Below, one piece after another: positions 12,795 to 64,000 of a stretch of 64,000 nt of DNA; positions within the stretch are counted from its first letter, which is position 1, and every line of letters begins with the position of its first letter. The notes beneath the pieces are model-generated. The model made no database searches, had not been told where the DNA came from, and saw only the letters and a list, made by a program, of their open reading frames with translations. Origin of the DNA: Carnobacterium funditum DSM 5970. Its GTDB lineage: Bacteria > Bacillota > Bacilli > Lactobacillales > Carnobacteriaceae. The stretch is taken from the NCBI RefSeq assembly GCF_000744185.1, contig NZ_JQLL01000001.1, positions 1,765,001-1,829,000 on the forward strand. Direction: 5' to 3'. The translations under genes were made by a program, and so were the position numbers.

Positions 12795-12797
12795 GTT

Positions 12798-45716: not shown

Positions 45717-45761
45717 GAGTAATTCTCCTTTGGATTTGATTGTTTTTTCACAATATAAAAT

Positions 45762-45778: not shown

Positions 45779-45789
45779 GATAGTCAAGT

Positions 45790-46225
45790 GTTTTAAGTCT
45801 ATAATTAAAAGACTGTCAAATATGGTAACGCAACAAATAAACGGAAAGCCTCATAAGTGTACCTTTAGGGGTATGGTAGGTAAAAAGATTTTTTAAGGAG
45901 AAAGATATAAAAAGTTGAAAAATGCAAAGAACTATATAAAGCACTAAAGAAGAAAATGAATAGGGGGTAAAAGTTTGCTAATCTTTTCTCCATACTATTT
46001 CTGTAACAAATCAGTCTGGAGAAAAGATTTATTTGTAGTAAAAAGATTTATTTGTAGTAAGTAGTAGTAAATGGAAAGACTTAGTCTCTTTTGCTTTTCC
46101 ACGAGAATTTGAGATAAAGCAATTCACTTTTTTTCATCCAGTAGGTTTAAATGCTTCGCTTAATCGGGAAAACTATTTTATAATGAAGTATGATTAAAAT
46201 TTGATGAACATAAAGAGGGGTTAAA
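45790..46225. other. Intergenic stretch with hairpin and tandem repeat
   Basis: No gene. AATCTTTTCTCCA (45980-45992) pairs with TGGAGAAAAGATT (46017-46029). A perfect 19-bp tandem duplication follows at 46022-46040 and 46041-46059. TATAAT near 46180 may be the dapF -10. Confidence 0.5.
46022..46059 (+). repeat. Perfect 19-bp tandem duplication
   Basis: AAAAGATTTATTTGTAGTA occurs twice head to tail, overlapping the right arm of a hairpin. It is a recent duplication with no visible effect on a gene. Confidence 0.85.
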
Positions 46226-47074: not shown

Positions 47075-48286
47075 ATGGTTACAGTAAATCACGATTATCT
47101 AGACTTAAAAGGAAGTTATCTGTTCTCTACAATCGCAAAGAAGATTACAGCTTATCAAACGAAACATCCGGAAGCGAAGATTATCCGCATGGGTATTGGC
47201 GATGTAACGCAACCACTGGTGCCAGCTGTCGTAGAAGCGCTCCATAAAGCAGTCGATGAACAAACAAGCATGGATACGTTCCATGGTTATGCACCCGATT
47301 TGGGTTATGCTTTTTTACGTGAAAAAATCGTTGAACAGGACTACGAAGCAAGAGGCGCACATGTCGAATCCGATGAAGTATTCATTTCAGACGGAGCAAA
47401 GGGCGATGTAGCAAATATTCAGGAAATATTCGGACGGAACAACAAGGTCGCTGTTGGCGATCCGGTTTACCCTGTTTATGTGGATAGCAATGTCATGAGC
47501 GGACGTACAGGTACATACAATGCTGAAACGGAAATTTGGAGTGATCTTACGTATCTTTCTGCGACGAGTGAAAATGAGTTTACGCCTTCTTTACCGACAA
47601 ATCATGTCGATTTGATTTACTTGTGCTACCCGAATAACCCGACAGGAACTACCTTGACGAAGGAAGCCTTGCAAGAGTGGGTTGACTATGCAAACAAGGA
47701 AGAGGCTATCATCATCTATGATTCTGCCTATGAAGCCTTCATCACGGAAGCGAACATCCCACGTTCCATTTATGAAATTGAAGGATCCAGAACGTGCGCC
47801 ATTGAAGTCAGAAGTTTTTCGAAGACGGCAGGCTTCACCGGTTTGCGTTTAGGTTATACGGTCGTTCCGAAAGAATTGGTACGTGAAGGAGTTGCTCTAC
47901 GTGATTTATGGGCAAGAAGACACTCTACGAAATTCAACGGCGCTCCGTACATTGTTTCGCGTGCAGGAGAAGCCGTGTATTCAAAAGAAGGTAAAAAACA
48001 AATTAAAGAACAAATCGCTTACTACTTGCGCAATGCAAAAACTATCCGTGAGTATTTGATGGAAGCTGGTTACGAAGTATTTGGTGGCGTAAATGCTCCT
48101 TATGTATGGACTAAAACACCAGAAGGAATGACGTCATGGGCATTCTTTGATTTCCTACTGGAAGAGAAGAACATCGTTGTGACGCCAGGTTCAGGTTTTG
48201 GCCCAAGTGGCGAAGGCTACGTTCGTTTCTCGGCATTCGGAGATTACGAATCGGTTCAGGAAGCAATGAAACGTATTACACAATAG
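47075..48286 (+). CDS. dapL: LL-diaminopimelate aminotransferase
   Basis: This PLP enzyme makes LL-diaminopimelate directly from tetrahydrodipicolinate, bypassing the succinyl/acetyl routes. The protein has 403 residues. PLP lysine K250 lies in VRSFSKTAGFTGLRLGY. DapL features are RMGIGDVTQPL, DTFHGYAPDLGYAFLR and YLCYPNNPTGT. It overlaps nothing and directly follows dapF. DapL is not the usual route in Lactobacillales, so a transferred dapFL unit is plausible given the GC-richer codons. Confidence 0.95.
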   Translation: MVTVNHDYLDLKGSYLFSTIAKKITAYQTKHPEAKIIRMGIGDVTQPLVPAVVEALHKAVDEQTSMDTFHGYAPDLGYAFLREKIVEQDYEARGAHVESDEVFISDGAKGDVANIQEIFGRNNKVAVGDPVYPVYVDSNVMSGRTGTYNAETEIWSDLTYLSATSENEFTPSLPTNHVDLIYLCYPNNPTGTTLTKEALQEWVDYANKEEAIIIYDSAYEAFITEANIPRSIYEIEGSRTCAIEVRSFSKTAGFTGLRLGYTVVPKELVREGVALRDLWARRHSTKFNGAPYIVSRAGEAVYSKEGKKQIKEQIAYYLRNAKTIREYLMEAGYEVFGGVNAPYVWTKTPEGMTSWAFFDFLLEEKNIVVTPGSGFGPSGEGYVRFSAFGDYESVQEAMKRITQ

Positions 48287-48293
48287 ACTATCT

Positions 48294-48345
48294 AGGCTTG
48301 AAGGCAGCTAGGCAATAGGCCAAGCTACTTCAAGTCTTTTTTTGT
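48294..48345 (+). terminator. Terminator after dapL
   Basis: It is a long imperfect stem (GGCTTGAAG with CTTCAAGTC, and AGCT/AGCT inside) followed by T7. Confidence 0.7.
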
Positions 48346-48359
48346 TTATTATCCAGATA

Positions 48360-48653
48360 AGCAATATAATTTTTAGCTAGCCCTATTTGTTCCTAATTCT
48401 TTTCGACGCATAATCTTCATGAAAAGCATCAAATTGGAATGGAAATGGAACTCGGTGGTCTGATGCTATAAGCACACGCAAAAAAGTTCAAGGTATTTTG
48501 CCCTTGAACTTTTTTGTCTGATGAAGTTCAGAACTTTGTCGTAACGTGTTTGATGCATAATCCAGACATAGTTGTTGACGATACCTAGTAGGGTTGCAAT
48601 TAGATAGTTATTTATTTCATGTTTCTTCTCGCCGAATTCTATTCTGTATTTGA
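48360..48653. other. Gene-free stretch with a second terminator
   Basis: It is decayed DNA without a gene. On the minus strand about 48513-48650 reads NYLIATLLGIVNNYVWIMHQ, possibly a membrane-protein remnant. Confidence 0.35.
48480..48517. terminator. Bidirectional terminator
   Basis: It has a 15-bp stem (48480-48494 with 48503-48517) and A6/T6 flanks. Confidence 0.85.
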
Positions 48654-49094
48654 CTACGACATGAGGCTATCTCTTACCATATCGATGTGTGGAATATTGT
48701 CTTCCAGGTAGATTTCTGAAATAGGTCGGAAACCGAATGATGTGTAAAATGTTTGCAGATAGGCTTGTGCTTGGGCATTCATGGGAAGTCCAGGATAGTG
48801 TTGATCCGCATAAGATAAAATGACTGTCAATAACTCTTCACCGAATCCGTTTTTCCTTTGTTCTTTCGGGACCATTACCCGCCCAATCCGGGTGCTGCCG
48901 GGTTCTAAAATAAGGCGTGCATAGGCCATAAATACATCATCTGCTTGTTTGAAGAAATGGATGCTTGTAAGATCAATATCATCGATTTCTTGATAGGCAC
49001 AGTCCTGTTCAACAACAAATACAGTTGTGCGTTCTTTATAAATACGGTGGAGCTCATTGTTCGTGAGTTCTCCAAAATGTTTGATTATCCACAT
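48654..49094 (-). CDS. GNAT acetyltransferase, ElaA type
   Basis: This 146-residue protein is of the ElaA-like GNAT group. It has the opening block YKERTTVFVVEQDCAYQEID, acetyl-CoA-binding RVMVPKEQRKNGFGEELLTV (R/Q-x-x-G-x-G/A type loop), and a C-terminal YTSFGFRPISEIYLEDNIPH block. The substrate is unknown. The start ATG follows AGGAGGA. It is monocistronic. Confidence 0.86.
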   Translation of the reverse strand: MWIIKHFGELTNNELHRIYKERTTVFVVEQDCAYQEIDDIDLTSIHFFKQADDVFMAYARLILEPGSTRIGRVMVPKEQRKNGFGEELLTVILSYADQHYPGLPMNAQAQAYLQTFYTSFGFRPISEIYLEDNIPHIDMVRDSLMS

Positions 49095-49577
49095 ACTTAA
49101 TCCTCCTGACAGAATAGCGATTTCCGTTCATAATAGCCTTATTATAGCAAAGTCGGCACAAATAAAAAATAGGCGAATTTTTTAGGGCATCCTCTAACAG
49201 AAAGGACTACGATAATCAGTCAAAAAAGAACACCTGAAACAAGATGAAATCTTTAAGGTTGAATAAATAAAAGACGCATCAAAAACGCTTAATAAATGTG
49301 TAAACAATGAATCTTCTGAGAGTCGTTTTGATAGTGCCTAGTATAGTCCGTTCAAGTGCAATATTAAATGAGGATAATAACTGCTGGCGCTATACAAGAG
49401 AACGATCCAATTGGTCAGGAATTGTTCCAGTAAGATCAGAATTAGATGTTAAGTTGGACTAGATTAACTTGTGAAATGGATGGTTTGTAGCTTATACAGT
49501 CAGTGTATTTTTTAATTTAAAAATAACATCTTTAATTAAAGCTGTTTGTATCCCTACGGAAAGAGTGGATAAATCTA
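49095..49577. other. Intergenic stretch
   Basis: No intact gene. Short plus-strand pieces (for example VPSIVRSSAILNEDNN then stops, about 49335-49400) look like an old pseudogene that I cannot name. Confidence 0.35.
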
Positions 49578-49630
49578 TTGTATCCACTCATATTAAGGTG
49601 TACAATCAAATAGGATTAGGTGTACCTTAA
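49578..49630 (+). promoter_or_regulatory. feo promoter with overlapping inverted repeat
   Basis: TTGTAT (49578-49583), 17 bases, TACAAT (49601-49606). A TTAAGGT...ACCTTAA inverted pair (49593-49599 and 49624-49630) brackets the -10 and presumed start. This may be the operator of an iron repressor (Fur or DtxR type). Confidence 0.55.
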
Positions 49631-49650
49631 AGATGAAAAGGAGTATTATA

Positions 49651-49896
49651 ATGAAGTTGTCAAAATTAAACAGAAATGAGTCAGTAGTGGTGACAAAAGT
49701 TGGTCATCCAGATCCACAAATGCAGCAACGGTTAATGGATTTGGGCTTTTATCCTGGAGGATTAGTCAAATTAGTGCTAGTTAGTCCAAAGAAAGATCCT
49801 AAAGCATATGAAGTAAGAGGGACGGTTATTGCAATCCGTAATGAGGATGCTAATTATATACAGGTAAAAATAAAGGAGAAAAACGATGTCGGATGA
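49651..49896 (+). CDS. feoA: Ferrous iron transport protein A
   Basis: This small SH3-like cytoplasmic protein supports FeoB. It has 81 residues from ATG 49651, which follows AAAGGAG by seven bases; the ATG at 49633 precedes that site and is less likely. It contains QQRLMDLGFYPGGLVKLVLV, the FeoA signature. It overlaps feoB by 11 bp, so the two are coupled. No feoC is present. Confidence 0.93.
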   Translation: MKLSKLNRNESVVVTKVGHPDPQMQQRLMDLGFYPGGLVKLVLVSPKKDPKAYEVRGTVIAIRNEDANYIQVKIKEKNDVG

Positions 49897-51784
49897 GTTT
49901 ATATTGGAAAATGAAAAAAATGGGCATGTCATTTCTTTAGCAGGAAATCCTAATGTTGGAAAAAGCACTGTTTTTAATCAATTGACTGGTTTAAAACAAC
50001 ACACTGGTAATTGGCCTGGAAAAACGGTTGGTATCGCAGAAGGAACAAAGCAGCATAAAAATAACTATTATTGTTTAGTTGATTTACCAGGTACCTATTC
50101 CCTTTCGTCTAATTCAGAAGAAGAAGAGGTAGCACAAGATTTTATCCAATCTGATTTATCTGAAGCGACCATTTGTGTTTGTGATGCAACTTCATTAGAA
50201 CGCAATTTAAATTTGGTGTTACAAATCATGCAAATGTCAGACAAAGTGGTGGTTTGTGTTAACTTAATTGATGAGGCACGTAAAAAAGGAATAGAGATTA
50301 ATATCGATAAATTGCAATCGTTATTAGGAGTTCCTGTCATTGCTACAGCAGCACGTCAAAATGAAGGATTAGATAACTTAATGACTGCTATAGATAAAGT
50401 GGTTTCTGAGGAACTTAAAATGAACCCCTATATGAAAAAAGCTTTAGTTAGTTTAAAGGAAAACCAAGAAGAGAATACAAAAGCCTTATTAGATCGAGCG
50501 ACAGTCATAGCTAACGATGTGATAAGCTTCACAAAAGAGGATCATAATCGCCGCGATCGCAAGCTGGATAAAATTTTGACGCAAAAACTGACCGGTATTC
50601 CAATTATGATTTTGTTATTAATTGTCGTTTTTTGGTTAACAATACAAGGAGCAAATGCACCCTCAAATGCTTTAGCAAGTATGTTTGGTACAATAGGGGC
50701 TTACTTGAATCAATTCGCGGCAGCTATTAATATGCCTGAGTGGTTGCGTGGCGCATTAATGGATGGAATTTATAATGTATTATCAACGGTTATTTCAGTA
50801 ATGCTGCCACCAATGGCTATCTTCTTTCCTTTGTTTACCTTACTAGAAGATTTCGGTTACTTGCCGCGTGTCGCCTTCAACTTAGATAAGTTTTTTGCAA
50901 ACGCAGGAGCATGTGGCAAACAAGCGCTGACGATGTGTATGGGATTTGGTTGTAATGCAGCTGGTGTAACAGGAACACGAATCATCAATTCACCTAGAGA
51001 AAAATTAATTGCTATTGTAACGAATAATTTTGTGCCATGTAATGGCCGGTTTCCAATATTAATTTCAATCATTACTATGTTCTTTGTAGGAAGTTCCGTA
51101 AGTTTGGGAAGTAGTTTACTTTCAGCGGTTCTTCTAGCTGGGACAGTTATTTTAGGGATATTAACAACATTTTGGATTTCTCAATTGCTTTCTAAAACGA
51201 TTTTAAAAGGCGTTCCCTCTTCATTCACGTTGGAATTACCGCCTTATCGTAAACCGCAAGTTGGATCAGTTATTGTTCGATCTATTTTTGATAGAGCGCT
51301 ATTTGTTTTATGGCGTGCAATTATTGTTGCTGCGCCAGCTGGATTAGTCATTTGGATAATGGCTAATGTTAGGATTGGTGACGCTAGCATATTGACCTGG
51401 ATTACAACTGCAATTGATCCGTTTGCTCGTTTAATGGGCTTAGATGGAACCATTTTAATGGCTTTCATTCTTGGATTACCTGCAAATGAAATTGTTATTC
51501 CAATTATGGTTATGGGCTACTTGAGTAAATCAACGCTCTTCGAATTCGATTCATTAGATCAATTTAAAACACTTTTGCTAGATAATGGATGGACGTGGTT
51601 AACAGCAGTGAATACCATTTTATTTACGATTTACCACTGGCCATGTTCTACAACGTTAATGACGATATACAAAGAAACGAAAAGTGCCAAATGGACATGG
51701 ATATCCTTCCTAGTACCAACAGTAATGGGAATAGTAACAACGATGATCGTTACCTTTTTAGCACATCTCTTTCATTTAGTATAA
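49886..51784 (+). CDS. feoB: Ferrous iron transporter B, GTPase-coupled
   Basis: This Fe2+ importer has an N-terminal G domain: G1 GNPNVGKST, G3 DLPGTYS, G4 NLID (residues about 20-160). A linker leads to a membrane domain of about eight helices, with the CGKQALTMCMGFGCNAAGVTG and NFVPCNGRFPIL gating blocks containing the conserved Cys residues. It has 632 residues, on the short side for FeoB but with all main parts. Start ATG 49886 lies inside the end of feoA. It is followed 55 bp later by glycerate kinase on the same strand. Confidence 0.96.
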   Translation: MSDEFILENEKNGHVISLAGNPNVGKSTVFNQLTGLKQHTGNWPGKTVGIAEGTKQHKNNYYCLVDLPGTYSLSSNSEEEEVAQDFIQSDLSEATICVCDATSLERNLNLVLQIMQMSDKVVVCVNLIDEARKKGIEINIDKLQSLLGVPVIATAARQNEGLDNLMTAIDKVVSEELKMNPYMKKALVSLKENQEENTKALLDRATVIANDVISFTKEDHNRRDRKLDKILTQKLTGIPIMILLLIVVFWLTIQGANAPSNALASMFGTIGAYLNQFAAAINMPEWLRGALMDGIYNVLSTVISVMLPPMAIFFPLFTLLEDFGYLPRVAFNLDKFFANAGACGKQALTMCMGFGCNAAGVTGTRIINSPREKLIAIVTNNFVPCNGRFPILISIITMFFVGSSVSLGSSLLSAVLLAGTVILGILTTFWISQLLSKTILKGVPSSFTLELPPYRKPQVGSVIVRSIFDRALFVLWRAIIVAAPAGLVIWIMANVRIGDASILTWITTAIDPFARLMGLDGTILMAFILGLPANEIVIPIMVMGYLSKSTLFEFDSLDQFKTLLLDNGWTWLTAVNTILFTIYHWPCSTTLMTIYKETKSAKWTWISFLVPTVMGIVTTMIVTFLAHLFHLV

Positions 51785-51848
51785 AAGGAAAAAGCTGTTA
51801 CAATGACTAGTATCGTATACCAACTGACCTTAACAGGAGGTGAATCCA

Positions 51849-52976
51849 GTGAAAATAATTTCTGCTATGGACTCAATGAAGGGTTCTTTAACAAGTATTG
51901 AAGCCAATCGTATCATAAAAGAAGTTTTCCAAGATGAACAAATAGAGGTTGTAGAAATAGCCATTGCAGACGGAGGAGAAGGGACTGTTGAAGTTTTTGT
52001 AGAGAATGGACAGGGTGTCTATGAAACGGTGGCTGTTCATAATCTAAAAGGAGAGGCTATAGAGACAGTTTTTGGCTGGCTAGCAGAATCAAAAACAGCG
52101 ATTATCGAAGCAGCTGCAGCTGCCGGTATCCAATTTTTAGATTTTAAAGAAGCCACACATCCTAAAAATACCAGTTCAATCGGTGTTGGCGAAACAATCC
52201 TAAAAGCATTAGATAAACAGGCTGAAACGATTATTATTGGACTAGGTGGCTCAGGAACGGTTGATGGTGGCATAGGAGCACTAGCAGCTTTAGGAGTAAG
52301 ATTTTATGATAATCAAGGAGCAGAGTTGACTCCTGTTGGAAAGAATCTAGCGAATATTTCAAGCATAAACGAGGACAAATTAGATTCGCGTGTAAAAGAA
52401 ACAACATTCATCGTTGCAGCTGATGTAGCGAGTACGTTAACAGGACCAGATGGGGCAGTCTATATGTTTGGTTTGCAAAAAGGGATTTTAGAAGAAGAGC
52501 TGTCAGCATATGAAAGGGCAATGGAACAGTTTAAGAGTATCCTTTTAGAAAATGAAGTAGATCACTTTGGCGACGGTGCAGCGGGTGGACTAGGTGCAGC
52601 ATTTAGAAAAGTGTTAAGTGCTGAAGTTGTTTCTGGGCTAGAATTAATTGCAAAACAAGTCCAGCTAGAGACACTACTGAAGGATACCGACTTAGTAGTG
52701 ACTGGTGAAGGGAAGCTGGATAATCAAACGCTGCAAGGAAAAGTACCTGTTGGAATCAGTCGCTTAAGCAAACAACGCGGGATTCCAACGATTGCTTTTG
52801 TTGGTGCGTTTACGGGTGACAGTGAAGCGTTTAAAAAAGTGGGTATCCATGCTGTAATACCCATCGTAGATCGAATTACTACATTAGAAGAAGCGATGGG
52901 AAATGCTGGAGAGAATTTAAAAAGAGCGGCTCAACGAACCAAGGAACTGCTATTTCTTTTAAACTCAATCGATTAA
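51849..52976 (+). CDS. glxK: Glycerate kinase
   Basis: It phosphorylates D-glycerate. The N-terminus KIISAMDSMKGSLTS matches the GlxK/GarK class (usual motif DSFKGSL). Further landmarks are IADGGEGTVEVF, IIGLGGSGTVDGGIGALAALG and LVVTGEGKLDNQT. It has 375 residues from GTG 51849, eight bases after GGAGG; GTG 51840 is the alternative. It may be cotranscribed with feoAB, but there is no functional link that I can name. A terminator follows. Confidence 0.93.
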   Translation: MKIISAMDSMKGSLTSIEANRIIKEVFQDEQIEVVEIAIADGGEGTVEVFVENGQGVYETVAVHNLKGEAIETVFGWLAESKTAIIEAAAAAGIQFLDFKEATHPKNTSSIGVGETILKALDKQAETIIIGLGGSGTVDGGIGALAALGVRFYDNQGAELTPVGKNLANISSINEDKLDSRVKETTFIVAADVASTLTGPDGAVYMFGLQKGILEEELSAYERAMEQFKSILLENEVDHFGDGAAGGLGAAFRKVLSAEVVSGLELIAKQVQLETLLKDTDLVVTGEGKLDNQTLQGKVPVGISRLSKQRGIPTIAFVGAFTGDSEAFKKVGIHAVIPIVDRITTLEEAMGNAGENLKRAAQRTKELLFLLNSID

Positions 52977-52984
52977 AAATAGCA

Positions 52985-53016
52985 AAAACCTCTCAGAAAA
53001 AATTCTGAGAGGTTTT
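52985..53016 (+). terminator. Terminator after glxK
   Basis: It is a perfect 13-bp stem (52985-52997 with 53004-53016) ending in GTTTT. Confidence 0.88.
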
Positions 53017-53044
53017 ATGTTTGAAAGAATCGTTCTATTCTACT

Positions 53045-53445
53045 TTTATTTCATAGTGATGGTAGCACGTAGTTGTATTTTATTGCATTGACAGAAGTAC
53101 TCAAAACAGTGGCGGGTTTACTAGTGTTAACGATTACTCTTGTATACACGTTTCTAACGTTTCCTTGATAGATTGGATAACATGCTATTCTTTTACTGCT
53201 AAAAACAGATATTGTTTCTGCTGGATTAATGTATAAATCTTCAGTTTGAAGTTAAGACATAACAGCCACAAGCATACCAGGTTTCAAGACGTTTTCAGCT
53301 GTTTTTCTGTTTAGTTCTTCATACATAGATTTCACTTGCTCATAGTTAACGACAGGAACTTGTGTTGTTTCTGTTTGTTCTAATGCATCGACCAACGTTT
53401 GATAAAAATCTTGAGATTTTATGTTTAGTGATGCAACAGCATATA
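53045..53445 (-). pseudogene. Unidentified broken gene
   Basis: On the minus strand one reads IKSQDFYQTLVDALEQTETT, VNYEQVKSMYEELNRKTAEN and VLKPGMLVAVMS, a stop, then LYINPAETISVFSSKRIACY and RVIVNTSKPATVLSTSVNAI. It is a coherent protein frame with one stop and no clear start. I do not recognise it. The rest of 53017-53747 has no gene. Confidence 0.45.
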
Positions 53446-53759
53446 TTAGTTTTTGATAGTATCAAAAGCAACCTTGTGTTACGTTAAAAAAATTGTCAGC
53501 GAATGAGTTAGCTAAATGAATATTTATTGATAAAGGATAATGATGAGAACGAAAAAGAATAGCCAAAGAGTGTGGAACATAAAAGTTGTTCAAAAAATTA
53601 AATAGAATAGAACTAAATGAAATAAAATACTTGAAAGGCATTAATAAAGAAAAAGCGAACACGAGTAAAGTAGGATGATACTACAATGTACTTACTTATC
53701 TATTTTTCTTATAGCCCTTATGTTAAAATATAGGTAAAAAGCTTTATGTGAGGAAGATT

Positions 53760-54371
53760 ATGGAAAAAAAGAATCAATATCGTACAACTATAAAAATTTG
53801 CCCCCTATTTTATCAAGAGACTAAACGAATCAACCAACTTTTATTAAATAATATAACGAAAGAAGAAATTATTAAAAAGTTGAACGACCAAAATCATTTA
53901 CAGTTAACGTCTGCTGCTCAAATAAAATCAGTTGGCAGCGAATTGTTGTATAGGCTGTCTTTACTCGATAAGAAAATGCAAGAGATGATTCAACAAGAAG
54001 ATAACCAAACGTCTAAAACTTTAGTAGTCTACAGCATTCTTTGTGCTGATCGGTTATTCATAGAATTTGCTAGAGAACTTTATTTAGATAAATTATTAAC
54101 GCTGTATACAGAAATTTCTAAACAAGAAGTCATTCGATTTATTGAGCGTAAAGCAGAAACAAATGAAACAGTTGCTAAATGGGAAGACTATACTTACAAT
54201 CGATTAGCGCGTTCTTTTTTGCAAGTACTAAAAGAAGCAGGTTGGATTCATGAAATAAGAAAAAGTCATTACAAAATAGAGAAGCCATTCATTTCAATTG
54301 GAGCTAGAAATTACTTGAAAGAAGAAGGTTATACTCCAGCTGTAGAAGTAGTGTTAGGAGAGTTAATATGA
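53760..54371 (+). CDS. brxA: BREX protein BrxA (DUF1819)
   Basis: It is the first gene of a BREX phage-defence operon. The 203-residue small helical protein of the DUF1819 family (RTTIKICPLFYQETKRINQLL, VVYSILCADRLFIEFARELY, YNRLARSFLQVLKEAGWI) is thought to bind DNA. I chose ATG 53760, six bases after GAGG. Its end overlaps brxB by 4 bp (ATGA). Confidence 0.93.
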   Translation: MEKKNQYRTTIKICPLFYQETKRINQLLLNNITKEEIIKKLNDQNHLQLTSAAQIKSVGSELLYRLSLLDKKMQEMIQQEDNQTSKTLVVYSILCADRLFIEFARELYLDKLLTLYTEISKQEVIRFIERKAETNETVAKWEDYTYNRLARSFLQVLKEAGWIHEIRKSHYKIEKPFISIGARNYLKEEGYTPAVEVVLGELI

Positions 54372-54949
54372 GAACGACTCAAGAGAGATTGAATATTCTA
54401 CAAGAAAAGTTAATAAGTCCTGACTTTTTAGAGAAACAAGGATTGGGAAATGAAATGAGTTATTATATTTTTGATTATGATCCCAAAGATGAACTTTTGA
54501 TACGCAAAGCCATTCCAGAGATGACGACATATATCACTAAGCATACTGGAGATAGACATTTTCAAGAATTTAATCTTTACGATATCATCATTGATTTTTT
54601 TGAAGAACGAAATTATATGCAAAAGAATTTTCGAGCTGAAGAGAAACTAGGTAGTGAACGAGTGATTGAAAAAATGCAACAAGGATTAAAAATTGCTACT
54701 GAACGGGATGTGATTGTTAATTCTATTAAAGAAAAATTAAATGAAGATGCTATTGTTTTGATTACTGGAGTTGGAAAAGCGTACCCAATTATCCGTTCGC
54801 ATGTCATTTTAAATAACTTACAATCAATTATCACTCACAAACCATTAATTATGTTTTACCCAGGCAGATTTGAAAATAATACGTTAAAATTATTTGATGT
54901 TTTTCACGATGATAATTATTATCGTGCATTTCAAATAGTACCTAGATAG
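54368..54949 (+). CDS. brxB: BREX protein BrxB (DUF1788)
   Basis: This 193-residue protein of the DUF1788 family starts RTTQERLNILQEKLISPDFL and ends DVFHDDNYYRAFQIVPR, with VLITGVGKAYPIIRSHVILN and MFYPGRFENNTLKLFD blocks. It is an essential BREX component of unknown biochemistry. It is coupled to brxA by a 4-bp overlap and followed 11 bp later by brxC. Confidence 0.93.
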   Translation: MRTTQERLNILQEKLISPDFLEKQGLGNEMSYYIFDYDPKDELLIRKAIPEMTTYITKHTGDRHFQEFNLYDIIIDFFEERNYMQKNFRAEEKLGSERVIEKMQQGLKIATERDVIVNSIKEKLNEDAIVLITGVGKAYPIIRSHVILNNLQSIITHKPLIMFYPGRFENNTLKLFDVFHDDNYYRAFQIVPR

Positions 54950-54960
54950 GAGGAGTTAAC

Positions 54961-57900
54961 TTGAAAATAAAAGAGTTGTTTTATAAAGATATTGAACGAG
55001 AAATCCAAGGTGTAGTTGTCGTTGATGAAAAAGAAGAAGCAAAAGCGGAGCAAGAGTTAGAAGAATTTGTTGTAACAGAAGAAATGGAAAAACATTTAGA
55101 TACTTTTTTTGAGGCATATAATAAAGCTTATAAACAACCCACGGACAGGATTGGAGTCTGGATATCAGGATTCTTTGGTTCAGGGAAGTCGCATTTCTTG
55201 AAGATAGTATCGTATTTATTAGATAGCAACAAAATCGTTTCAGGAAAAAGACCTGTTGATTATTTTGAAGTAAAAATTCACTATCCGATGATACTACAAA
55301 AGATGAAAGATGCGATTAGCTACCAAACGGATGTTGTCCTGTTTAATATTGATTCTAAAGCTGGAGCAAATACGAAGCAAAGAAAATTAGCCGTTGTCAA
55401 AGTCTTTAATAAAGTGTTTGATGAGCACCGTGGATACAGCCCCTCTATACCCTGGATTGCTCATTTAGAAGAAACCTTAGAGGACAAAGGGCAATATGAA
55501 GTGTTTAAAAAGTCATTTGAAGAAAAAGCTGGTCTTATTTGGGAAGAAGGAAGGGATGAAGTTTTCTACAATGAAGATGAGATGATAGAAGCTCTTATGG
55601 AAGCAACAGATATGAGCGAAGAAAGTGCACGCCATTGGATTACAACTGGTGAGGAAAATTATGATGTTAGTGTTGATTCGTTTGCCAGACGAGTGAAAAA
55701 ATATGTAGATCAAAAAGATTCTAATTACCGCCTAGTGTTTATGGCTGATGAAATGGGCCAATATATTTCTGATAATAAGGATTTAATGGTTGAATTGCAG
55801 ACTGTAGCAGAAGATATCGGTCGTTATACAAAAGGGCAAGTTTGGGTAGTGGTCACAAGTCAACAGGATATTGACAATTTAGAAAATGATCTTTCTTCTT
55901 CGAATGATTTTTCAAAAATTCAAGGTCGCTTTCCGACTCGCCTAAGCTTAAGCTCTGCAAATGCTGATGAAGTTATCAAAAAGCGCTTATTGGCTAAAAA
56001 TGACACGGCAAAACAAACGTTACAAATTACATACGATGAACGAATGCAAGCGGCTTTACGGAATAAAATTTCTTTTTCAACTGATACGGCTACATTAAAA
56101 GTATACGACACAATGAAAGATTTTGTTGATTTTTATCCTTTTGTTCCTTATCAAATTACATTATTACAAAAAGTACTAGAAGAAATTCGTAGACATGGAC
56201 TTGCTGGTTCAAGTGTCTCCACAGGAGAACGAAATTTATTAGGAACGATTCAATTAGCTGTTTTACAGTATAAAGATAATCCTGTAGGTTCTTTAATTCC
56301 ATTTCAATCGTTTTTTGCGAACCTAGACTCTAGTTTAGATTATAGTATACGATCAACTATTATAAAGGCACAACAAAATGCTAGTTTAAATAAATTTGAC
56401 GTCGAAGTATTAAAATTATTATTTCTAATTCGGTATATTCAAGAAATTCCAGCTAATAGTGAAAATGTCGCGACTTTAATGATTAATCAATTAGATGAGG
56501 ATAAATTAGAAGCAAGTAAACAAGTTGAAGAATCTTTAAGAAGATTAGTGAAAGAGTACTTAGTTCAGCGTAATGGATCTGAGTTTATCTTTTTGACTAA
56601 TGAAGAACAAGATATCAACCGCGAAATTCAAAATATGGAAGTACCTACAGCCAACTTACTTAACCAAATTGGGGAAGTAATCTATAGTGATATACTCGAC
56701 TTGAAAAAATACACACATTATTCGGTTTTGAATAAGAAAAGCGTCAGTTACAACTTTGACGTAGCTCGTTGGATAGACGATCGTGTTATTGGTAATGCTA
56801 ACGCTGAAATAGGTGTACGAATGATTACTCCTTATTCGGATAGTTATCAGAATCCAGAAAGTATCTTGCAACTATCTTCAAGAGAAAACCAAGTAATTGT
56901 GGAATTAGATTCTACAGGAACGTTTTATGAAGATATGTTAAATATTATGAAAATTGATCAGTATTTACGTGTGAATTCTTCTCGTAAACGGACAGACTTA
57001 GAACAGGATATTTTAAACCGTAAAGCTCGTGAACGAAATGAGTTAACAGCCACTATTCAAGTTCAATTGCGGAATGCTTTAGAGCATGCACATATCTATA
57101 TTTACGGTTCAGAAGTAGAAGTTAGTGGAACAAATGCTCCTTCAATTATTAGTGCTGGCTTACATCAATTGGTAACAAATATTTATCGCCATCTTAATTA
57201 TGTCCAAAAATTTTATGAACGGAGTGATTTTGATTCAGTTATTAATGAAGATGATATCGAATTACTAGAGATAGGGATAGACGGTAATGATGAAAATCAC
57301 TTAGCTACTGAGACTATCCAACAGTATATTCAGCGACAGTCCGAAAGAAAAATTACGTTCACATTGTTTAACTTGATTCAAGAATTTCAAATAAAACCAT
57401 ATGGCTGGCGTGTAGAGGATATTCTAGTCTCTATCATACGTTTAGTTAAGGCAGAAAAAATCATTCTAAAAACAAATCATCAAACCATTGAGTTGCAAGA
57501 TCCAATGCTAGAACGACAACTGATGAACCGAAACTCCCAAGAAAAAATGCTTATTCAAAAAAGAAAAGTGATTGACGAACGAATCCTCCGTGAGGTTAAG
57601 CAACTCCATAAAGATTTATTTGGAGTTCGTTTAACAGAAGATAAAGAAGATAGGATAGCCGAAGAATTTCGTGCGAGATTAGAACGGAAACAAAAAGAAT
57701 TACACACACTACTAGAAAAATATCGAGAACATTTTTATCCGGGGCAAGAAGAGATCAATCAGTATCTGAAAGATATTACCCAAGTAGTTCATGTACAAGA
57801 TACGTTAGATTTTATTCAAACTTTACATCGGACAGCAATGGACCTGTATGATGATGCGGATGAAATGATAGAAATACAGACATTCTTTAAGTATAGTCAA

Positions 57901-58578
57901 GTAGTTTATGATGAAGCTTACAAAATACGCAATCGGTTTAAAGATGATCAATCCATGATTCAACTTGAAGAAACTTTAAGCGTGGGAAATGAAATACAAA
58001 ATATTATAAAAATGGCACGTCCATATAAACGGTTGAGCGACTTACCAAAATTAGTCGAACAATATAAACAGTCATTAACGGAAGAAATGAATAGAGAAAT
58101 TGGACCGCTAATGGATAACGTAACAAACAAAGAAAAAATATTACTCGATTCTATTCAAACGGACAAAGAAGTAAATCAGCACTTTGTTCATAGTATTCGC
58201 AGTCGCTTTGAGGTATTAAAACAAAAGGTTGATAACTCTGGCACGTTGAAAGATTTAAGTGCTGCTAAATCTGAAGTCGAGTTTATTACAGATCAACTAT
58301 CTAGTCAAATTAATAGATACCAGCATGAACTAGCGGAAGAACGGCGAATAGCATTAAAAGCAAAACAAAATATACAAAAAGAAAAATCTTATCCTGAAAA
58401 AGAAGAAGTTGAACCCATCATACATGAACCACAAGCAGTATTGGTACATGTCAGTCAATTGATACCCTCTAGTAGCTACACTATTCGAAATGAAGCAGAG
58501 TTAGCTAAGTTGATGGAAGAAATGAAACTAAGACTTCAAAAAGAGTTAACAGAAAATAAATACATTCAATTTATCTAA
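54961..58578 (+). CDS. brxC: BREX ATPase BrxC
   Basis: It is a large AAA+-like ATPase of the BREX complex with 1205 residues, normal for the family. The Walker A motif is GFFGSGKSHFLK (about residues 70-81) and Walker B is LVFMADEMGQYI (about D263, E264). The N-terminus IKELFYKDIEREIQGVV is typical. The long C-terminal half contains coiled coils (RIAEEFRARLERKQKELH and others). It starts at TTG 54961 after AGGAGG. A hairpin resembling a terminator follows its stop before pglX. Confidence 0.96.
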   Translation: MKIKELFYKDIEREIQGVVVVDEKEEAKAEQELEEFVVTEEMEKHLDTFFEAYNKAYKQPTDRIGVWISGFFGSGKSHFLKIVSYLLDSNKIVSGKRPVDYFEVKIHYPMILQKMKDAISYQTDVVLFNIDSKAGANTKQRKLAVVKVFNKVFDEHRGYSPSIPWIAHLEETLEDKGQYEVFKKSFEEKAGLIWEEGRDEVFYNEDEMIEALMEATDMSEESARHWITTGEENYDVSVDSFARRVKKYVDQKDSNYRLVFMADEMGQYISDNKDLMVELQTVAEDIGRYTKGQVWVVVTSQQDIDNLENDLSSSNDFSKIQGRFPTRLSLSSANADEVIKKRLLAKNDTAKQTLQITYDERMQAALRNKISFSTDTATLKVYDTMKDFVDFYPFVPYQITLLQKVLEEIRRHGLAGSSVSTGERNLLGTIQLAVLQYKDNPVGSLIPFQSFFANLDSSLDYSIRSTIIKAQQNASLNKFDVEVLKLLFLIRYIQEIPANSENVATLMINQLDEDKLEASKQVEESLRRLVKEYLVQRNGSEFIFLTNEEQDINREIQNMEVPTANLLNQIGEVIYSDILDLKKYTHYSVLNKKSVSYNFDVARWIDDRVIGNANAEIGVRMITPYSDSYQNPESILQLSSRENQVIVELDSTGTFYEDMLNIMKIDQYLRVNSSRKRTDLEQDILNRKARERNELTATIQVQLRNALEHAHIYIYGSEVEVSGTNAPSIISAGLHQLVTNIYRHLNYVQKFYERSDFDSVINEDDIELLEIGIDGNDENHLATETIQQYIQRQSERKITFTLFNLIQEFQIKPYGWRVEDILVSIIRLVKAEKIILKTNHQTIELQDPMLERQLMNRNSQEKMLIQKRKVIDERILREVKQLHKDLFGVRLTEDKEDRIAEEFRARLERKQKELHTLLEKYREHFYPGQEEINQYLKDITQVVHVQDTLDFIQTLHRTAMDLYDDADEMIEIQTFFKYSQVVYDEAYKIRNRFKDDQSMIQLEETLSVGNEIQNIIKMARPYKRLSDLPKLVEQYKQSLTEEMNREIGPLMDNVTNKEKILLDSIQTDKEVNQHFVHSIRSRFEVLKQKVDNSGTLKDLSAAKSEVEFITDQLSSQINRYQHELAEERRIALKAKQNIQKEKSYPEKEEVEPIIHEPQAVLVHVSQLIPSSSYTIRNEAELAKLMEEMKLRLQKELTENKYIQFI

Positions 58579-58583
58579 TAAAA

Positions 58584-58615
58584 GAAAGAGCTAAATCATT
58601 TTAGCTCTTTTTTAA
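58584..58615 (+). terminator. Intra-operon hairpin between brxC and pglX
   Basis: AAAGAGCTAAA pairs with TTTTAGCTCTTT with a short ATCA-type loop, and TTTTTT lies at the foot of the stem. It sits within 50 bp between brxC and pglX. It probably lowers pglX expression relative to brxABC. Confidence 0.75.
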
Positions 58616-58633
58616 AATGAAAGAAGTGTGAGT

Positions 58634-61600
58634 ATGGATAAAACAAGTTTGAAGATATTTGTATTGAATGCAAGACGAGAATTAACTAATTTAGTGATTG
58701 CACAAGCAGCAAGCTGGGGAATTACTTCTGGAAGAATGGCAGAGAAAACGTATTTAGAAGATGGCATGATTATCAATGGTCAAGTCGTCGATGCTGATAC
58801 AGCAAATAATTATGACCATTTAGTCAAACGAATTGAATTGAATGGTTACGAAGAAGTTATAAAAGAAGCGACATATACTTGGTTCAATCGCTTTGTAGCT
58901 TTAAGGTACATGGAAATTCATGATTATTTACCTATTCGAACTCGAATTTTATCATCAACAAAAAAAGGGAAAAATGAGCCAGATGCTCTTACGGAAATAA
59001 ACTATCTTATTGAAGAGCTTAAAATGGACAAGGAGGTCGTCTATAAATTACAAGATGAGCATAGAGTAGATGACTTATTTAACTATCTTATTGAAAAGCA
59101 GAGCAAACAATTAGAAACAATGATTCCAAATGTTTTTGATAAAATAGAACGCGATTTATTTCTATTGTTGCCAAATGGTCTGCTGAAAGAAAATGGTTTC
59201 ATAGAACATCTTATAGAGGATATACCTGAAGAAGATTGGTCAGAAATAGAAATTATTGGATGGTTGTATCAATACTATATTTCTGAAGAAAAAAATACTA
59301 TTTTCGCAAATATCCGTAAAAAAAAAATTGGGAAAAATGAAATCGGTCCAGCAACTCAAATATTCACTCCTAAATGGATTGTACAGTATTTGGTAGACAA
59401 CTCATTAGGAAGGCTATGGATAGAGAACAATCCAAGTACTCAATTGCGTGATTTCTTACCCTATTATATTGAAGATGCAAAACAGTCAGAAAGTGTGATG
59501 CAACAATTAGAAAGGGTAAAGGGTAAGACTATTAAGCCTGAAGAAATAAGAGTAATGGATCCAAGTATGGGTTCAGGACATATGTTATTGGAAGCATTTG
59601 AAGTCTTAAAAGAAATATATTTAGAACAAGGGTATCGTATTCGTGAAATCCCAACATTGATATTAGAAAATAACTTATACGGATTAGATATTGATAAAAG
59701 GGCTTCTCAATTGGCAAGTTTTGTTCTGGTTATGAAAGCACGTTCGTACGATCGTAGCTTTTTCGAACGAGATAGTACATTACATTTATTGGGTTTTGAA
59801 GAAAGTAATGATCTTTCTTTAATCGAAAATATAGTGATTGGAAATTTAGACGAAGCGAATAAAGAGCTTGGAAAACTGTACGAAAACTTTGAAGATGCAA
59901 AATTATATGGCTCAATCATTAAACTCTCGCCAGTAAATATTGAAGCAATTGAACAAGCACTTAACGATATTAAGGACTTATCCAATAACGACATTTTTGC
60001 ACAAGAATTTTTAGAATATATTAGCCCTCACATTGAACAACTTATTCATCAATATCAACTCTTGTCGCGTACATACCACGTTACAGTTACAAATCCACCT
60101 TATATGGGAAGCAGTGGTATGAACGATTCATTAAAGAAGTATGTAAAGAAACATTATCCAGTAAGTAAATCGGATCTATTTGCAGTAATGATGGAAGTTG
60201 AATTTAATTTAACTAAAAATAATTATTATGTAGCTATGATTAATCAACATGCATGGATGTTCCTAAGTTCATATGAAAAGTTACGAAAATCGGTTATTAA
60301 AACTAAAACAATTAGTAGTATAGTTCATACCGGAACAAGAACATTTCCAGAAATAAATGGGGAAATAGTACAAAGTGTATCTTTTATCATTAAAAATCAA
60401 AAGACTAAAGATTTTATCGGTAATTACGTACGTTTAGTTGATTATACTAGTGAAGAAAAACAATATCAGATTTTAAACAAAAAAAATAATTATAATATCA
60501 CACAAAATAATTTTGAAAAGATACCAGGAAGTCCAGTAGCTTATTGGCTATCCGATGCTATAATCAATAAATTTTCTGAAAACCTATCTTTAAGCACATC
60601 TTCTGAGCCTAGACAAGGTCTAGCAACAGGTGAAAATGATAGGTTTCTACGTTATTGGTTCGAATTAATGACAACCGAGATTAATTTTAATGCTTCAAGT
60701 ATTCAAAATGCTTTAGAAAGCAGATATAAATGGTTTCCTACGTCAAAAGGCGGATCATTTAGGAAATGGTATGGTAATAATAATTACGTAGTTGAGTGGG
60801 AAAATGATGGACGTAATATGAAAAATTTTATTAATTCAGAAGGAAAACAACGTTCCGTTATTCGTAATCCATCTTATTATTTCAAAAAAGGAATAACATG
60901 GTCAACGATTAGCAGCTCATTACCGTCATTTAGATACCATGATAATGCGATTTTTGAAACTAAAGGCTCCGTTCTTTTTCCACTTAAAGATGAAGATTTT
61001 TATTATATTTTTGGGTATATGAATACTAAATTAGTTGTTTTATTTTTACAATGTCTATCTCCTACATTAGATTTTCATGAAGGTCCAATGGGTAAAATTC
61101 CTTTTATTAATGGACATAGCGAAAAGGTTAATGAAATAGTAAAGAGTAATATAAGAGTATCCAAGCAAGATTGGGATTCATTTGAAACGTCTTGGGACTT
61201 TGAAAAGCACCCCTTCATTACCTATCAAGAAAACTTTGGAACTATAGAAAATATATTTCAAAGGTGGTCTAATGTAGCTGAAAATAGATTTAATGAATTA
61301 AAAGAAAATGAAGAAGAATTAAACCGACTATTTATTGATATTTATGGTCTACAAGATGAACTAACTCCTGAAATAGAAGACGAAGACGTCACCATAAGAA
61401 AAGCAGATTTAAGTCGTGATGTTAAAAGCTTTTTATCTTATCTAGTAGGAGTCATTTTCGGTCGTTATTCCTTGGACAAGCCAGGCTTAATATATGCTGG
61501 TGGTGACTTTGAATTAGAGCAGTATCAGACATATAAACCAGATAAAGATAATGTTATTCCAATAACAGATGAACATTATTTCGAAGACGATATTGTGTCT

Positions 61601-62170
61601 CGGGTAATAGAATTAGTAAAGATTATTTTTGGAGAACAAACGGTTGAAGAAAATCTACAGTTTATCGCAGAAGCTCTAGGAATGAAAACGAATGAAAATT
61701 CAAGAGAGGCTCTTCGCCGGTATTTTATGAAAGATTTCTTTAAGGATCATAAAAAGATATATCAAAAAAGACCTATTTATTGGCAAATGACAAGTGGAAA
61801 AGAAGACGCATTTAAAGGGTTAATTTACTTGCATCGTTATGAAACAACTACTTTAGCTCGTGTTCGTACAGATTATGTATTGCCATTAACGAATACTATT
61901 TCTGAATTGATGCGCCAAGCACAGCTTGTTAGTGATGGCAGTGATTCTTCAAAAGAAGTTGCTAAAGCTCAAAAGACTAAAGAAAAATTTCAAAAGCAAT
62001 TACAAGAATTAAGGGATTATGACTTAATATTGAAGAATTTAGCGGATCAAGAAATTGAGTTAGATTTAGACGACGGTGTAAAAATTAATTACGAGAAGTT
62101 TCAAAATATCCCTGTAACAGGAACAGAGAATCATAGGGTGACTCAAATGAATTTGTTAGAAAAAATATAA
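58634..62170 (+). CDS. pglX: BREX adenine-specific DNA methyltransferase
   Basis: It is the N6-adenine methyltransferase that marks host DNA and is needed for BREX restriction. It has about 1178 residues. SAM motif I is MDPSMGSGHMLLEAF (D309 region) and the catalytic motif is VTNPPYMGSSGM (N487-P-P-Y490). The N-terminal region (LTNLVIAQAASWGITSGRMAE) and the long C-terminal target-recognition part match type-1 BREX PglX. I chose ATG 58634 seven bases after AAGAAG over GTG 58628. The gene is intact, with no phase-variable tract noticed. It is followed by mazE rather than directly by pglZ. Confidence 0.96.
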   Translation: MDKTSLKIFVLNARRELTNLVIAQAASWGITSGRMAEKTYLEDGMIINGQVVDADTANNYDHLVKRIELNGYEEVIKEATYTWFNRFVALRYMEIHDYLPIRTRILSSTKKGKNEPDALTEINYLIEELKMDKEVVYKLQDEHRVDDLFNYLIEKQSKQLETMIPNVFDKIERDLFLLLPNGLLKENGFIEHLIEDIPEEDWSEIEIIGWLYQYYISEEKNTIFANIRKKKIGKNEIGPATQIFTPKWIVQYLVDNSLGRLWIENNPSTQLRDFLPYYIEDAKQSESVMQQLERVKGKTIKPEEIRVMDPSMGSGHMLLEAFEVLKEIYLEQGYRIREIPTLILENNLYGLDIDKRASQLASFVLVMKARSYDRSFFERDSTLHLLGFEESNDLSLIENIVIGNLDEANKELGKLYENFEDAKLYGSIIKLSPVNIEAIEQALNDIKDLSNNDIFAQEFLEYISPHIEQLIHQYQLLSRTYHVTVTNPPYMGSSGMNDSLKKYVKKHYPVSKSDLFAVMMEVEFNLTKNNYYVAMINQHAWMFLSSYEKLRKSVIKTKTISSIVHTGTRTFPEINGEIVQSVSFIIKNQKTKDFIGNYVRLVDYTSEEKQYQILNKKNNYNITQNNFEKIPGSPVAYWLSDAIINKFSENLSLSTSSEPRQGLATGENDRFLRYWFELMTTEINFNASSIQNALESRYKWFPTSKGGSFRKWYGNNNYVVEWENDGRNMKNFINSEGKQRSVIRNPSYYFKKGITWSTISSSLPSFRYHDNAIFETKGSVLFPLKDEDFYYIFGYMNTKLVVLFLQCLSPTLDFHEGPMGKIPFINGHSEKVNEIVKSNIRVSKQDWDSFETSWDFEKHPFITYQENFGTIENIFQRWSNVAENRFNELKENEEELNRLFIDIYGLQDELTPEIEDEDVTIRKADLSRDVKSFLSYLVGVIFGRYSLDKPGLIYAGGDFELEQYQTYKPDKDNVIPITDEHYFEDDIVSRVIELVKIIFGEQTVEENLQFIAEALGMKTNENSREALRRYFMKDFFKDHKKIYQKRPIYWQMTSGKEDAFKGLIYLHRYETTTLARVRTDYVLPLTNTISELMRQAQLVSDGSDSSKEVAKAQKTKEKFQKQLQELRDYDLILKNLADQEIELDLDDGVKINYEKFQNIPVTGTENHRVTQMNLLEKI

Positions 62171-62298
62171 GGAAAGATCCTTCCTAGATAGTAAGTTTAT
62201 CTGGGAAGTTTTTTTATGGAAATTTAGAATAGAAAAAGCACTCTGTTTGTAAAGGGTTGTAATGACATGTTACAATAATAAGAAAAGGAGGAGTTTCT

Positions 62299-62529
62299 AT
62301 GAGTACAATTAAGGCTAGAAAACAAGGGAATTCGATTATGGTTACCATACCTAGTTCTTTTGGTGTTAAAGAAGGAGAAGAATTTTTTTTCATCAAAAAA
62401 GATAATGGAGCTATCGTAATGATTCCTAAAATTAACAATCCTTTTGAGATTGCTGAAGATGGCGAATTCTATACTCCAGATTTAAACGTCGGTTTTGTCC
62501 CTGTTAAAGGAGAATTAGATGAGCTATAA
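62299..62529 (+). CDS. mazE: MazE-like antitoxin (AbrB fold)
   Basis: This 76-residue antitoxin has a SpoVT/AbrB-type N-terminus (TIKARKQGNSIMVTIPSSFG) for DNA binding. The acidic C-terminal tail (YTPDLNVGFVPVKGELDEL) presumably wraps the toxin. It starts at ATG 62299 behind AAAGGAGGAG, a much stronger ribosome site than that of pglX. It overlaps mazF by 11 bp. It lies 128 bp after pglX, inside the BREX locus. Confidence 0.88.
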   Translation: MSTIKARKQGNSIMVTIPSSFGVKEGEEFFFIKKDNGAIVMIPKINNPFEIAEDGEFYTPDLNVGFVPVKGELDEL

Positions 62530-62884
62530 ACCTAAACAAAGAGATATAGTCATTATTGATTTTGCGCCGTCAAAAGGCTATGAAATCAATAAAAGACGTC
62601 CTGCATTAGTGGTAAGCAGTGATGATTATAACCGTGCAACGAATCTTGTGATTGTTTGTCCGATTACAACGACAGAAAAAGAAAAAGTCTTTCTTATTCC
62701 AATTGAATCAGACAAATTACGAGCTAACGGAATAGCTACCAGCAAGGTAAATACAAACCAAGTTTTTTCATTAGATTATACAGAAAAAGCTACTAGGAAT
62801 ATTCAATTTTTAGATAGAATAGAAGAAGAAACGTTTTACCAAATTGTTCAAATGTTTATGCATAATTTTTCGTTTAAAATTTAA
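62519..62884 (+). CDS. mazF: MazF-family toxin endoribonuclease
   Basis: This 121-residue PemK/MazF mRNA interferase reads KQRDIVIIDFAPSKGYEINK, RRPALVVSSDDYN (the usual GSEQxGxRPAVVIS region), LVIVCPITTTEK (catalytic Thr region) and NQVFSLDYTEKAT. The frame is intact and coupled to mazE. It would cut mRNA when the antitoxin is lost. It may guard or couple to the BREX genes. A terminator follows. Confidence 0.9.
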   Translation: MSYKPKQRDIVIIDFAPSKGYEINKRRPALVVSSDDYNRATNLVIVCPITTTEKEKVFLIPIESDKLRANGIATSKVNTNQVFSLDYTEKATRNIQFLDRIEEETFYQIVQMFMHNFSFKI

Positions 62885-62911
62885 AAGACTAAAGAGAGTT
62901 AATAAATAAAA

Positions 62912-62962
62912 AAAGAAGCACACTTCACTTTAATGTTATAAGTGGAATGTGCTTCTTTTAAA
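62912..62962 (+). terminator. Terminator after mazF, before pglZ
   Basis: AAAGAAGCACA pairs with TGTGCTTCTTT, with an inner TTCACTT/AAGTGGAA stem and T run after. It separates pglX-mazEF from pglZ. Confidence 0.85.
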
Positions 62963-63160
62963 TTAAAATGAATGCTAAACATAGTAGTAAATAGTGTATC
63001 TTCTTGTTAAAATAGGTATAGTTTACTTTGGATTATTTATTAAACGAGTAATAAAAAGAAATAGACTAGCTTATCTAATAGCCAATATGATTTTTAGCGA
63101 ACGAAAGTTATAAGATAGAATAATAATAAACAACTAGTGATAAGAAAGTATGGTGAAGTA
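62963..63160 (+). promoter_or_regulatory. Presumed promoter region of pglZ
   Basis: About 200 bp of AT-rich DNA lies between the mazF terminator and pglZ. With a terminator upstream, pglZ must be transcribed from here or by read-through. I cannot fix a single -35/-10 pair. Confidence 0.45.
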
Positions 63161-64000
63161 GTGTTTGAAGCTGAAGTAAAATTAAAAGAACGTTTTAAAC
63201 AACCCTTACGAGATGAGCAAATAAGAAGAATTATCTTTTGGTACGATGAAACGCAAAGTTATGTATCTGAAGTAGATGAGTACAAGTTAGAAGACGTTCA
63301 TACGATTAAAGTTAATGAGAATAACTTGATTTATACAAAGTACCTTATTGAAAAAGAATTTCCAAATGATTCTTTTTTATTGTATTTTGGGGAAGCAAAG
63401 CCCCTTGAAAAACAGAATAATCCCTTGTTAGATATTTATTTTTATTCAGAAGAATTTAAACTGGATGCGATGGCAGCAATCATGGACGAATTAGGACTAG
63501 ACGATAATGAAAGTGATTATTTCTTCCAGTCCCATGCAGCTTTTTTTCAAAATAAGAAACGGCAAAAAGAATTTCGCGATTTATTGATAGGAGATAGCGA
63601 CAAGTCTATCGAAAAATTAACGTTAGGAATTATGTGTGTATTGGTTAAAGCAAAAGAGTTCAGTTTTTCAGTTGTTTGTGAGAAATTATTTGCAGAATTA
63701 GCCCAAGATTCTAGCTTATCTTGGGAACAAATTGAGAAATTTGGTAAACCAAGTGAGTTTTGGGAATTTGCAGAGAACAAATTTTATTACCACAAAGAGA
63801 AGCCAAGTTTAAGAGATTTTCTTATCAGCATTTTTGTATCTAAGTTATCAATAGATTATAATGAAAAGATTCCTGCTAATTGGGACAATTATCTAATAAC
63901 ACCTGAAAATAACAGCGTTGTTTTTTTAAACCGTTGGATGAATCAAGTTAACGGGAAGATAGAATACAAGAAAGTAGCTATACTGGTTGCAAACGAATTA
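63161..64000 (+). CDS. pglZ: BREX alkaline-phosphatase-like protein PglZ (5' part)
   Basis: An open frame runs off the window. It reads FEAEVKLKERFKQPLRDEQI and RRIIFWYDETQSYVSEVDEY, the PglZ N-terminus (usual RxIVFWYDxxxEF). It continues with DIYFYSEEFKLDAMAAIMDE and SDYFFQSHAAFFQNKKRQKE to the end without a stop. The phosphatase-superfamily domain lies beyond the window. GTG 63161 is the likely start, GTG 63137 an option, both with weak ribosome sites. It completes the type-1 BREX set with brxL expected further right. Confidence 0.9.
   Translation, partial: MFEAEVKLKERFKQPLRDEQIRRIIFWYDETQSYVSEVDEYKLEDVHTIKVNENNLIYTKYLIEKEFPNDSFLLYFGEAKPLEKQNNPLLDIYFYSEEFKLDAMAAIMDELGLDDNESDYFFQSHAAFFQNKKRQKEFRDLLIGDSDKSIEKLTLGIMCVLVKAKEFSFSVVCEKLFAELAQDSSLSWEQIEKFGKPSEFWEFAENKFYYHKEKPSLRDFLISIFVSKLSIDYNEKIPANWDNYLITPENNSVVFLNRWMNQVNGKIEYKKVAILVANEL

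Follow-up and report, generated by a model that had tools for sequence, protein, structure and literature searches.

A mazEF toxin–antitoxin cassette separating pglX from pglZ in a brxL-less BREX locus of Carnobacterium funditum is probably mobile addiction cargo

The window, a stretch of 64,000 nucleotides from Carnobacterium funditum DSM 5970, ends in a BREX locus in which a mazEF toxin–antitoxin pair separates pglX from pglZ. The pair is probably mobile addiction cargo that sits in a known accessory slot of BREX. An autonomous type II cassette of plasmid type would have entered the pglX–pglZ slot of a BREX system that has no brxL, and its entry would date to the ancestor of two species of a single genus.

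All genes of the locus are encoded on the plus strand in the order brxA-brxB-brxC-pglX-mazE-mazF-pglZ, and each of them has a family match. The first gene, brxA (53748..54371; 207 aa, starting at GTG 53748 or ATG 53760), matches Pfam BrxA (E=1.4e-39) and PADLOC BrxA, and is followed by brxB (54368..54949; 193 aa; Pfam BrxB 8.8e-41). The product of brxC/pglY (54961..58578; 1205 aa) contains the Walker A motif GFFGSGKSH and three Pfam BrxC domains and scores 1221 bits against PADLOC BrxC, while the methyltransferase encoded by pglX/brxX (58628..62170; 1180 aa) carries an NPPY motif and scores 1481 bits against PADLOC PglX. The start of pglZ lies 252 bases 3' of mazF, with no clear ribosome site upstream. 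The window holds the first 288 of its 847 aa (63137..64000; PADLOC PglZ 4.6e-62 for this part), and the gene, which occupies L003:2137-4680 as a whole, continues intact beyond the window.

The type 1 BREX gene set of brxA, brxB, brxC, pglX and pglZ is present in this one locus, in the same order and with the same domains as in the type 1 systems of Bacillus cereus, E. coli HS and Acinetobacter; in contrast to these, the genome of the window has no brxL. Type 1 BREX is also defined by site-specific N6-adenine methylation and phage exclusion, and accessory genes around its core are known. Judged by its genes alone, the locus would be classified as a brxL-less, type 1-like BREX.

The mazE gene (62299..62529, + strand) encodes a 76-aa antitoxin of the AbrB/MazE fold, whose match to Pfam MazE_antitoxin (7.7e-6) is barely above the Pfam cut-off. 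This small AbrB-like gene lies directly 5' of the PemK/MazF toxin gene, mazF/pemK (62519..62884, + strand; 121 aa; Pfam PemK_toxin 6e-24), and overlaps it by 11 bases. MazF aligns with its PDB homologues 7bye, 7d28 and 1ub4, and residues R27 and P28 of the RP motif and T50 of the PIT motif are conserved among 36 aligned sequences. By its domains and gene arrangement, the pair is a MazEF-type type II toxin–antitoxin.

The pair is bordered by transcription signals of its own. An intrinsic terminator directly 3' of pglX (62180..62208, + strand) has a 12-bp stem and a T7 tail (-18.1 kcal/mol, z=-5.1, 0/200 shuffles) and is kept in the sister species G042; a terminator-like hairpin without strand assignment follows mazF (62911..62959; -23.2 kcal/mol, z=-7.2). 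The strong terminator after pglX argues against treating mazEF as an ordinary member of the BREX operon. A pattern scan places a promoter-like TTGTAA-18-TACAAT site upstream of mazE (62247..62276, + strand), and the palindrome TTGTAAtgacatgTTACAA (62257-62275), likely the MazE operator, overlaps this site over its -10 element. The scan is not evidence by itself, because shuffled sequence yields as many sites. In three other genomes, homologous pairs located away from BREX have a near-identical promoter/palindrome core 5' of mazE, suggesting that the control region travels with the cassette; the chromosomal copy of the same subfamily in G363 (69%) has this core in common with the window's mazEF. 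On these signals, of which promoter and operator are consensus readings, mazEF looks like a transcription unit of its own. The initial annotation was correct in the gene order and coordinates of the locus, with strong family matches throughout, and in recognising, between pglX and pglZ, a genuine pair of MazEF type that runs in operon direction and has its own ribosome site (AAGGAGG, 62286..62292, + strand). Its placement of mazEF within the operon is not supported, in view of the terminator, the likely promoter and operator, and the hairpin after mazF.

Relatives of this MazF (E<=1e-10) are present in 107 of 398 genomes of the order Lactobacillales. This MazF lies between pglX and pglZ in only two of the 398, the genome of the window (G000) and G042, which represent the genus's two species with this BREX. 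None of 106 other BREX loci contains mazEF between pglX and pglZ, and conservation of mazEF with BREX was seen neither across the order nor in 80 named GTDB loci. The nearest chromosomal MazF relatives outside the genus are 83% (G001) and 69% (G363) identical, followed by 67% and 64%, and none of them is located beside BREX; nor does any other relative examined outside the genus adjoin a BREX locus. The MazEF/PemIK pairs of Enterococcus plasmids encode a MazF that is 65-69% identical to the window's, and several of these records have MazE annotated alongside. In contrast to these plasmid pairs, the window's pair is chromosomal, lies inside BREX and has terminators on both sides. The closest other BREX, that of Jeotgalibaca caeni (PglZ 53%), has a pglX–pglZ gap of 15 bases with nothing in between. 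The pair thus turns up at unrelated sites and is missing from related BREX loci, the very pattern that the initial annotation had named as a refutation, and its distribution does not bear out the proposed tie of mazEF to BREX. A phage or viral origin was considered and rejected: viral contigs contain no relative, and the best of 22 phage records is 67% identical (an Enterococcus phage), which makes plasmid-like transfer the better reading.

The slot itself is used widely. Among the 106 other BREX loci, surveyed for having pglX and pglZ on the same contig, 44 contain at least one extra open reading frame of at least 70 aa between the two genes, with Pfam domains of the Schlafen, OLD/AAA-like, Fic, restriction-like and other families. 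Toxin–antitoxin pairs in this position comprise RelB-YoeB in Pelotomaculum (L134), nucleotidyltransferase (MNT)-HEPN pairs in L128 and L133, and a PIN protein with a small partner in Methanobrevibacter (L154). Pairs of different families occupying the same slot show that such nesting is a recurring event, and since the slot takes extra genes in other BREX clusters, mazEF looks like cargo. Two points can be set against pure cargo. The presence of different toxin–antitoxin families in one slot could reflect selection for a suicide arm, and the mazEF of the window's species predates the split of the two species and has stayed intact, an outcome that pure hitch-hiking need not give. BREX accessory and backup effectors (BrxU, PARIS, Schlafen, HEPN-MNT and PIN; PMC8565348, PMC12839542) are likewise extra genes within the locus, and some of them are RNase toxin–antitoxin pairs; the window's mazEF differs from them in having its own transcription signals. 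One study reports HEPN-MNT and PIN proteins of BREX loci to be backup effectors and does not name MazF (PMC12839542). A BREX auxiliary or backup effector is characterised by a conserved position inside or beside the core in several lineages, a distribution that this mazEF, confined to one genus, does not have.

Further genes were seen around BREX loci elsewhere. In four loci of genus g20 (L083, L084, L085 and L089; family f6), a different mazEF lies 3' of pglZ, in the brxL position. In three of the four species, the arginine codon of the conserved RP motif of this mazF is replaced by a stop codon; the gene is intact in L084. In the Trichococcus loci (L076-L079), a Fic/Doc-type gene separates cas9 from pglZ, and one of them (L077) has AbiEi/AbiEii genes upstream of brxA. 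In L098, L100, L102, L103, L106 and L111, mostly from family f9, a second pglX in inverse orientation stands beside an open reading frame of 317-364 aa, which is probably a recombinase; these copies and the adjoining frame resemble the known pglX inversion arrangement.

For the mazEF of the window, we infer MazE–MazF activity, autoregulation and a stabilising effect that together would produce addiction. Transcription would presumably start from the pair's own MazE-repressed promoter, insulated from pglX by the terminator, and MazE would neutralise the MazF endoribonuclease. Upon loss of the DNA, the labile MazE would decay and MazF would stop growth. By this means the pair would secure its own retention in the chromosome and, incidentally, that of the defence island, and it would not be an active step of BREX.

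The state of the pair in G042 bears directly on its importance. The mazEF region has the same layout in both species and 98% DNA identity. A run of eight T in the window's mazE is a run of seven in G042, which causes a frameshift, and P28 of MazF, a proline in 31 of the 36 aligned sequences, is replaced by leucine. The frameshift falls within a homopolymer run and is possibly a sequencing error; the P28L exchange is independent of such an error. BREX is intact in G042, and its PglZ, BrxB and BrxA are 94% and its BrxC 97% identical to the window's. With BREX intact while mazE is frameshifted and MazF altered, a required role of mazEF is not supported, and this decay, together with the stops in the f6 mazF genes, is evidence against an indispensable toxin arm.

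The same observations weigh on the proposal of the initial annotation that MazF could form a second-line abortive-infection arm. A phage that inhibits BREX or shuts off host transcription would cause MazE to be lost faster than MazF, and growth would stop before phage release. Such an arm would be in line with the operon direction of mazEF, with the sharing of its slot by several toxin–antitoxin families, and with the proposal that BREX loci use HEPN-MNT, PIN and Schlafen endoribonucleases as a suicidal backup (PMC12839542). However, the terminator and the likely promoter leave no sequence coupling to BREX expression, the pair is restricted to one genus and decayed in G042, and the BREX-adjacent MazF of family f6 is also inactivated in three of four species. 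The phage-triggered arm is possible but unsupported, and we consider it rather unlikely in comparison with addiction cargo.

Most of pglX has been exchanged just upstream of mazEF. Between G000 and G042 (window:58628-62170 versus L074:6500-10033), windowed identity of PglX is 18-58% over the first ~880 aa and 86-100% over the last ~280 aa, and the genes around pglX are 94-97% identical. The exchanged portion includes the methyltransferase and presumably the specificity part. This mosaic between two species, with mazEF at its conserved edge, raises the question of a locus guard tied to pglX turnover, in which mazEF would penalise loss of the pglX–pglZ segment and yet permit allele replacement of the specificity part. 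This reading draws on only two genomes, however, one of which has a guard that is apparently no longer functional, and other lineages replace pglX without any toxin–antitoxin, which makes a guard of this kind fairly doubtful.

G042 contains two more BREX loci. In the second, the 5-base unit GCTGT is repeated almost perfectly 44.6 times between brxB and brxC (L086:15979-16202), and this tract is a candidate switch for phase variation or spacing in a BREX operon. The third (L112, G042:C2:2506550-2518606) is heavily decayed, with pglX and pglZ in pieces, and a type II cas9 is located ~13 kb away.

BrxL is an AAA+ ATPase with a Lon-like or HKD end. A search with PF13337 found no brxL anywhere in the genome of the window, and among the other searched genomes of the same PglZ clade only G343 gave a match, on contig C85 beside the second BREX of that genome. 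In E. coli, deletion of brxL abolishes protection but hardly affects methylation (PMC6326788), and only 76% of type 1 loci are reported to have BrxL (PMC12839542). In the window's genome, the usual place of brxL is taken by a complete type II CRISPR-Cas system that lies beyond the window, 3' of pglZ (L003:4740-13770, about 1830740-1839770 of genome contig C1). It consists of a tracrRNA with anti-repeat, two hairpins and terminator (L003:4740-4832), cas9 (about 4910-8215; a 1117-aa frame with HNH and RuvC domains), cas1 (8218-9120), cas2 (9107-9433) and a CRISPR array with about 64 36-bp repeats and 30-bp spacers (about 9486-13770). An Rfam search for tracrRNA or other RNAs gave no match, and the tracrRNA was located by its anti-repeat. 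From gene content only, the system would belong to type II-C, with which it shares tracrRNA, cas9, cas1, cas2, repeat and spacer lengths, and the absence of csn2 and cas4. It differs from known II-C systems in that, in nine genomes of five genera, it is fixed directly behind the pglZ of BREX, where brxL would stand.

With a full Cas9 system ~3 kb downstream of mazF, a CreTA-like control is conceivable, in which Cas9 and a degenerate crRNA would repress mazEF, and loss of Cas9 would free the toxin and thereby protect the island. CreTA modules have a degenerate repeat or guide by the toxin, aimed at its promoter. However, window positions 45000-64000 contain no repeat-like sequence, copies being confined to the downstream array and the tracrRNA anti-repeat, and no spacer matches mazEF or the window. 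Such control is therefore highly improbable. The spacers also have none in common with the part of the G042 array that was read.

The proximity of BREX and Cas9 extends beyond this genome. In a draw of 378 Lactobacillales genomes, this Cas9 subfamily occurs in ten, and in nine of these it lies downstream of a BREX pglZ. In the nine linked genomes, from five genera, cas9 is on the same strand as pglZ and 0.2-1.6 kb away from it; the one unlinked genome of the ten is G284. When more distant Cas9s are included, 18 of 35 have a PglZ gene within 13 kb, against fewer than one by simple arithmetic for random placement. The two systems are interdigitated in G096 (L081, G096:C5:2512324-2531840), in the order brxA-cas1-cas2-array-brxB-brxC-pglX-pglZ-cas9. 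Outside the order, Sporolactobacillus (L119, L122) and Clostridium nigeriense have pglZ, brxL, cas9, cas1 and cas2 in series, with a full brxL in the two Sporolactobacillus loci, and in a Bacillales MAG (L116) pglZ and cas9 flank an 88-aa BrxL-like piece. These arrangements suggest that brxL was there first and was then lost, and the comparison of L116 with L119 and L122 may have caught this loss in progress. A tie of this Cas9 subfamily to BREX throughout the Bacilli was rejected, as eight other holders in a class-wide draw either show no BREX gene in the surrounding DNA that was read or are located at the end of a contig. It is limited to Lactobacillales and scattered loci of Sporolactobacillus, Bacillales and Clostridium.

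Pairwise distances of PglZ and Cas9 are correlated with r=0.993 over eight Lactobacillales loci, a correlation as close as that of PglZ and BrxC (0.995). For the nine Lactobacillales rows, the PglZ and Cas9 trees branch alike except at one open fork in Trichococcus. In both, the window's genus groups with full support with Jeotgalibaca, which belongs to another family, and away from G112 and G096, which by family codes belong to the window's own. The trees are quick ones with SH-aLRT support only, and the host control, DAP epimerase, was uninformative, its gene being missing or paralogous in the comparison genomes. The agreement of the trees and the grouping with Jeotgalibaca across families indicate that BREX and Cas9 appear to travel together, and joint horizontal transfer is the simplest reading. 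We infer that the two systems are functionally independent. It is also imaginable, with a slim chance, that the brxL-less BREX and the linked Cas9 form a composite immune unit, inherited and transferred together, in which Cas9 would take, or be licensed for, the killing role of BrxL. Equally slim, as joint parts of that composite, are the ideas that the BREX genes would mark self DNA and perhaps sense phage and that the toxin–antitoxin cargo would act as a guard.

No description of BREX with mazEF or with an adjoining Cas9 was found in the literature searched, which took in few subscription papers. As an observation the mazEF finding holds true, and its meaning is ordinary to moderate: pglX–pglZ is a slot in which unrelated toxin–antitoxin pairs keep landing, and the decay of at least some BREX-adjacent pairs calls for caution before every toxin–antitoxin in a BREX locus is called a suicide arm. 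The linkage of BREX and Cas9 is less expected than mazEF cargo, and this neighbourhood is the part worth bench work. A functional BREX–Cas9 composite, if true, would be far more interesting than the toxin–antitoxin pair. A BREX that lacks a gene on which protection depends in E. coli and travels with Cas9 constitutes a natural test of joint action versus joint inheritance, and the BREX–Cas9 unit without brxL would equally serve as a test of the purpose of BrxL.
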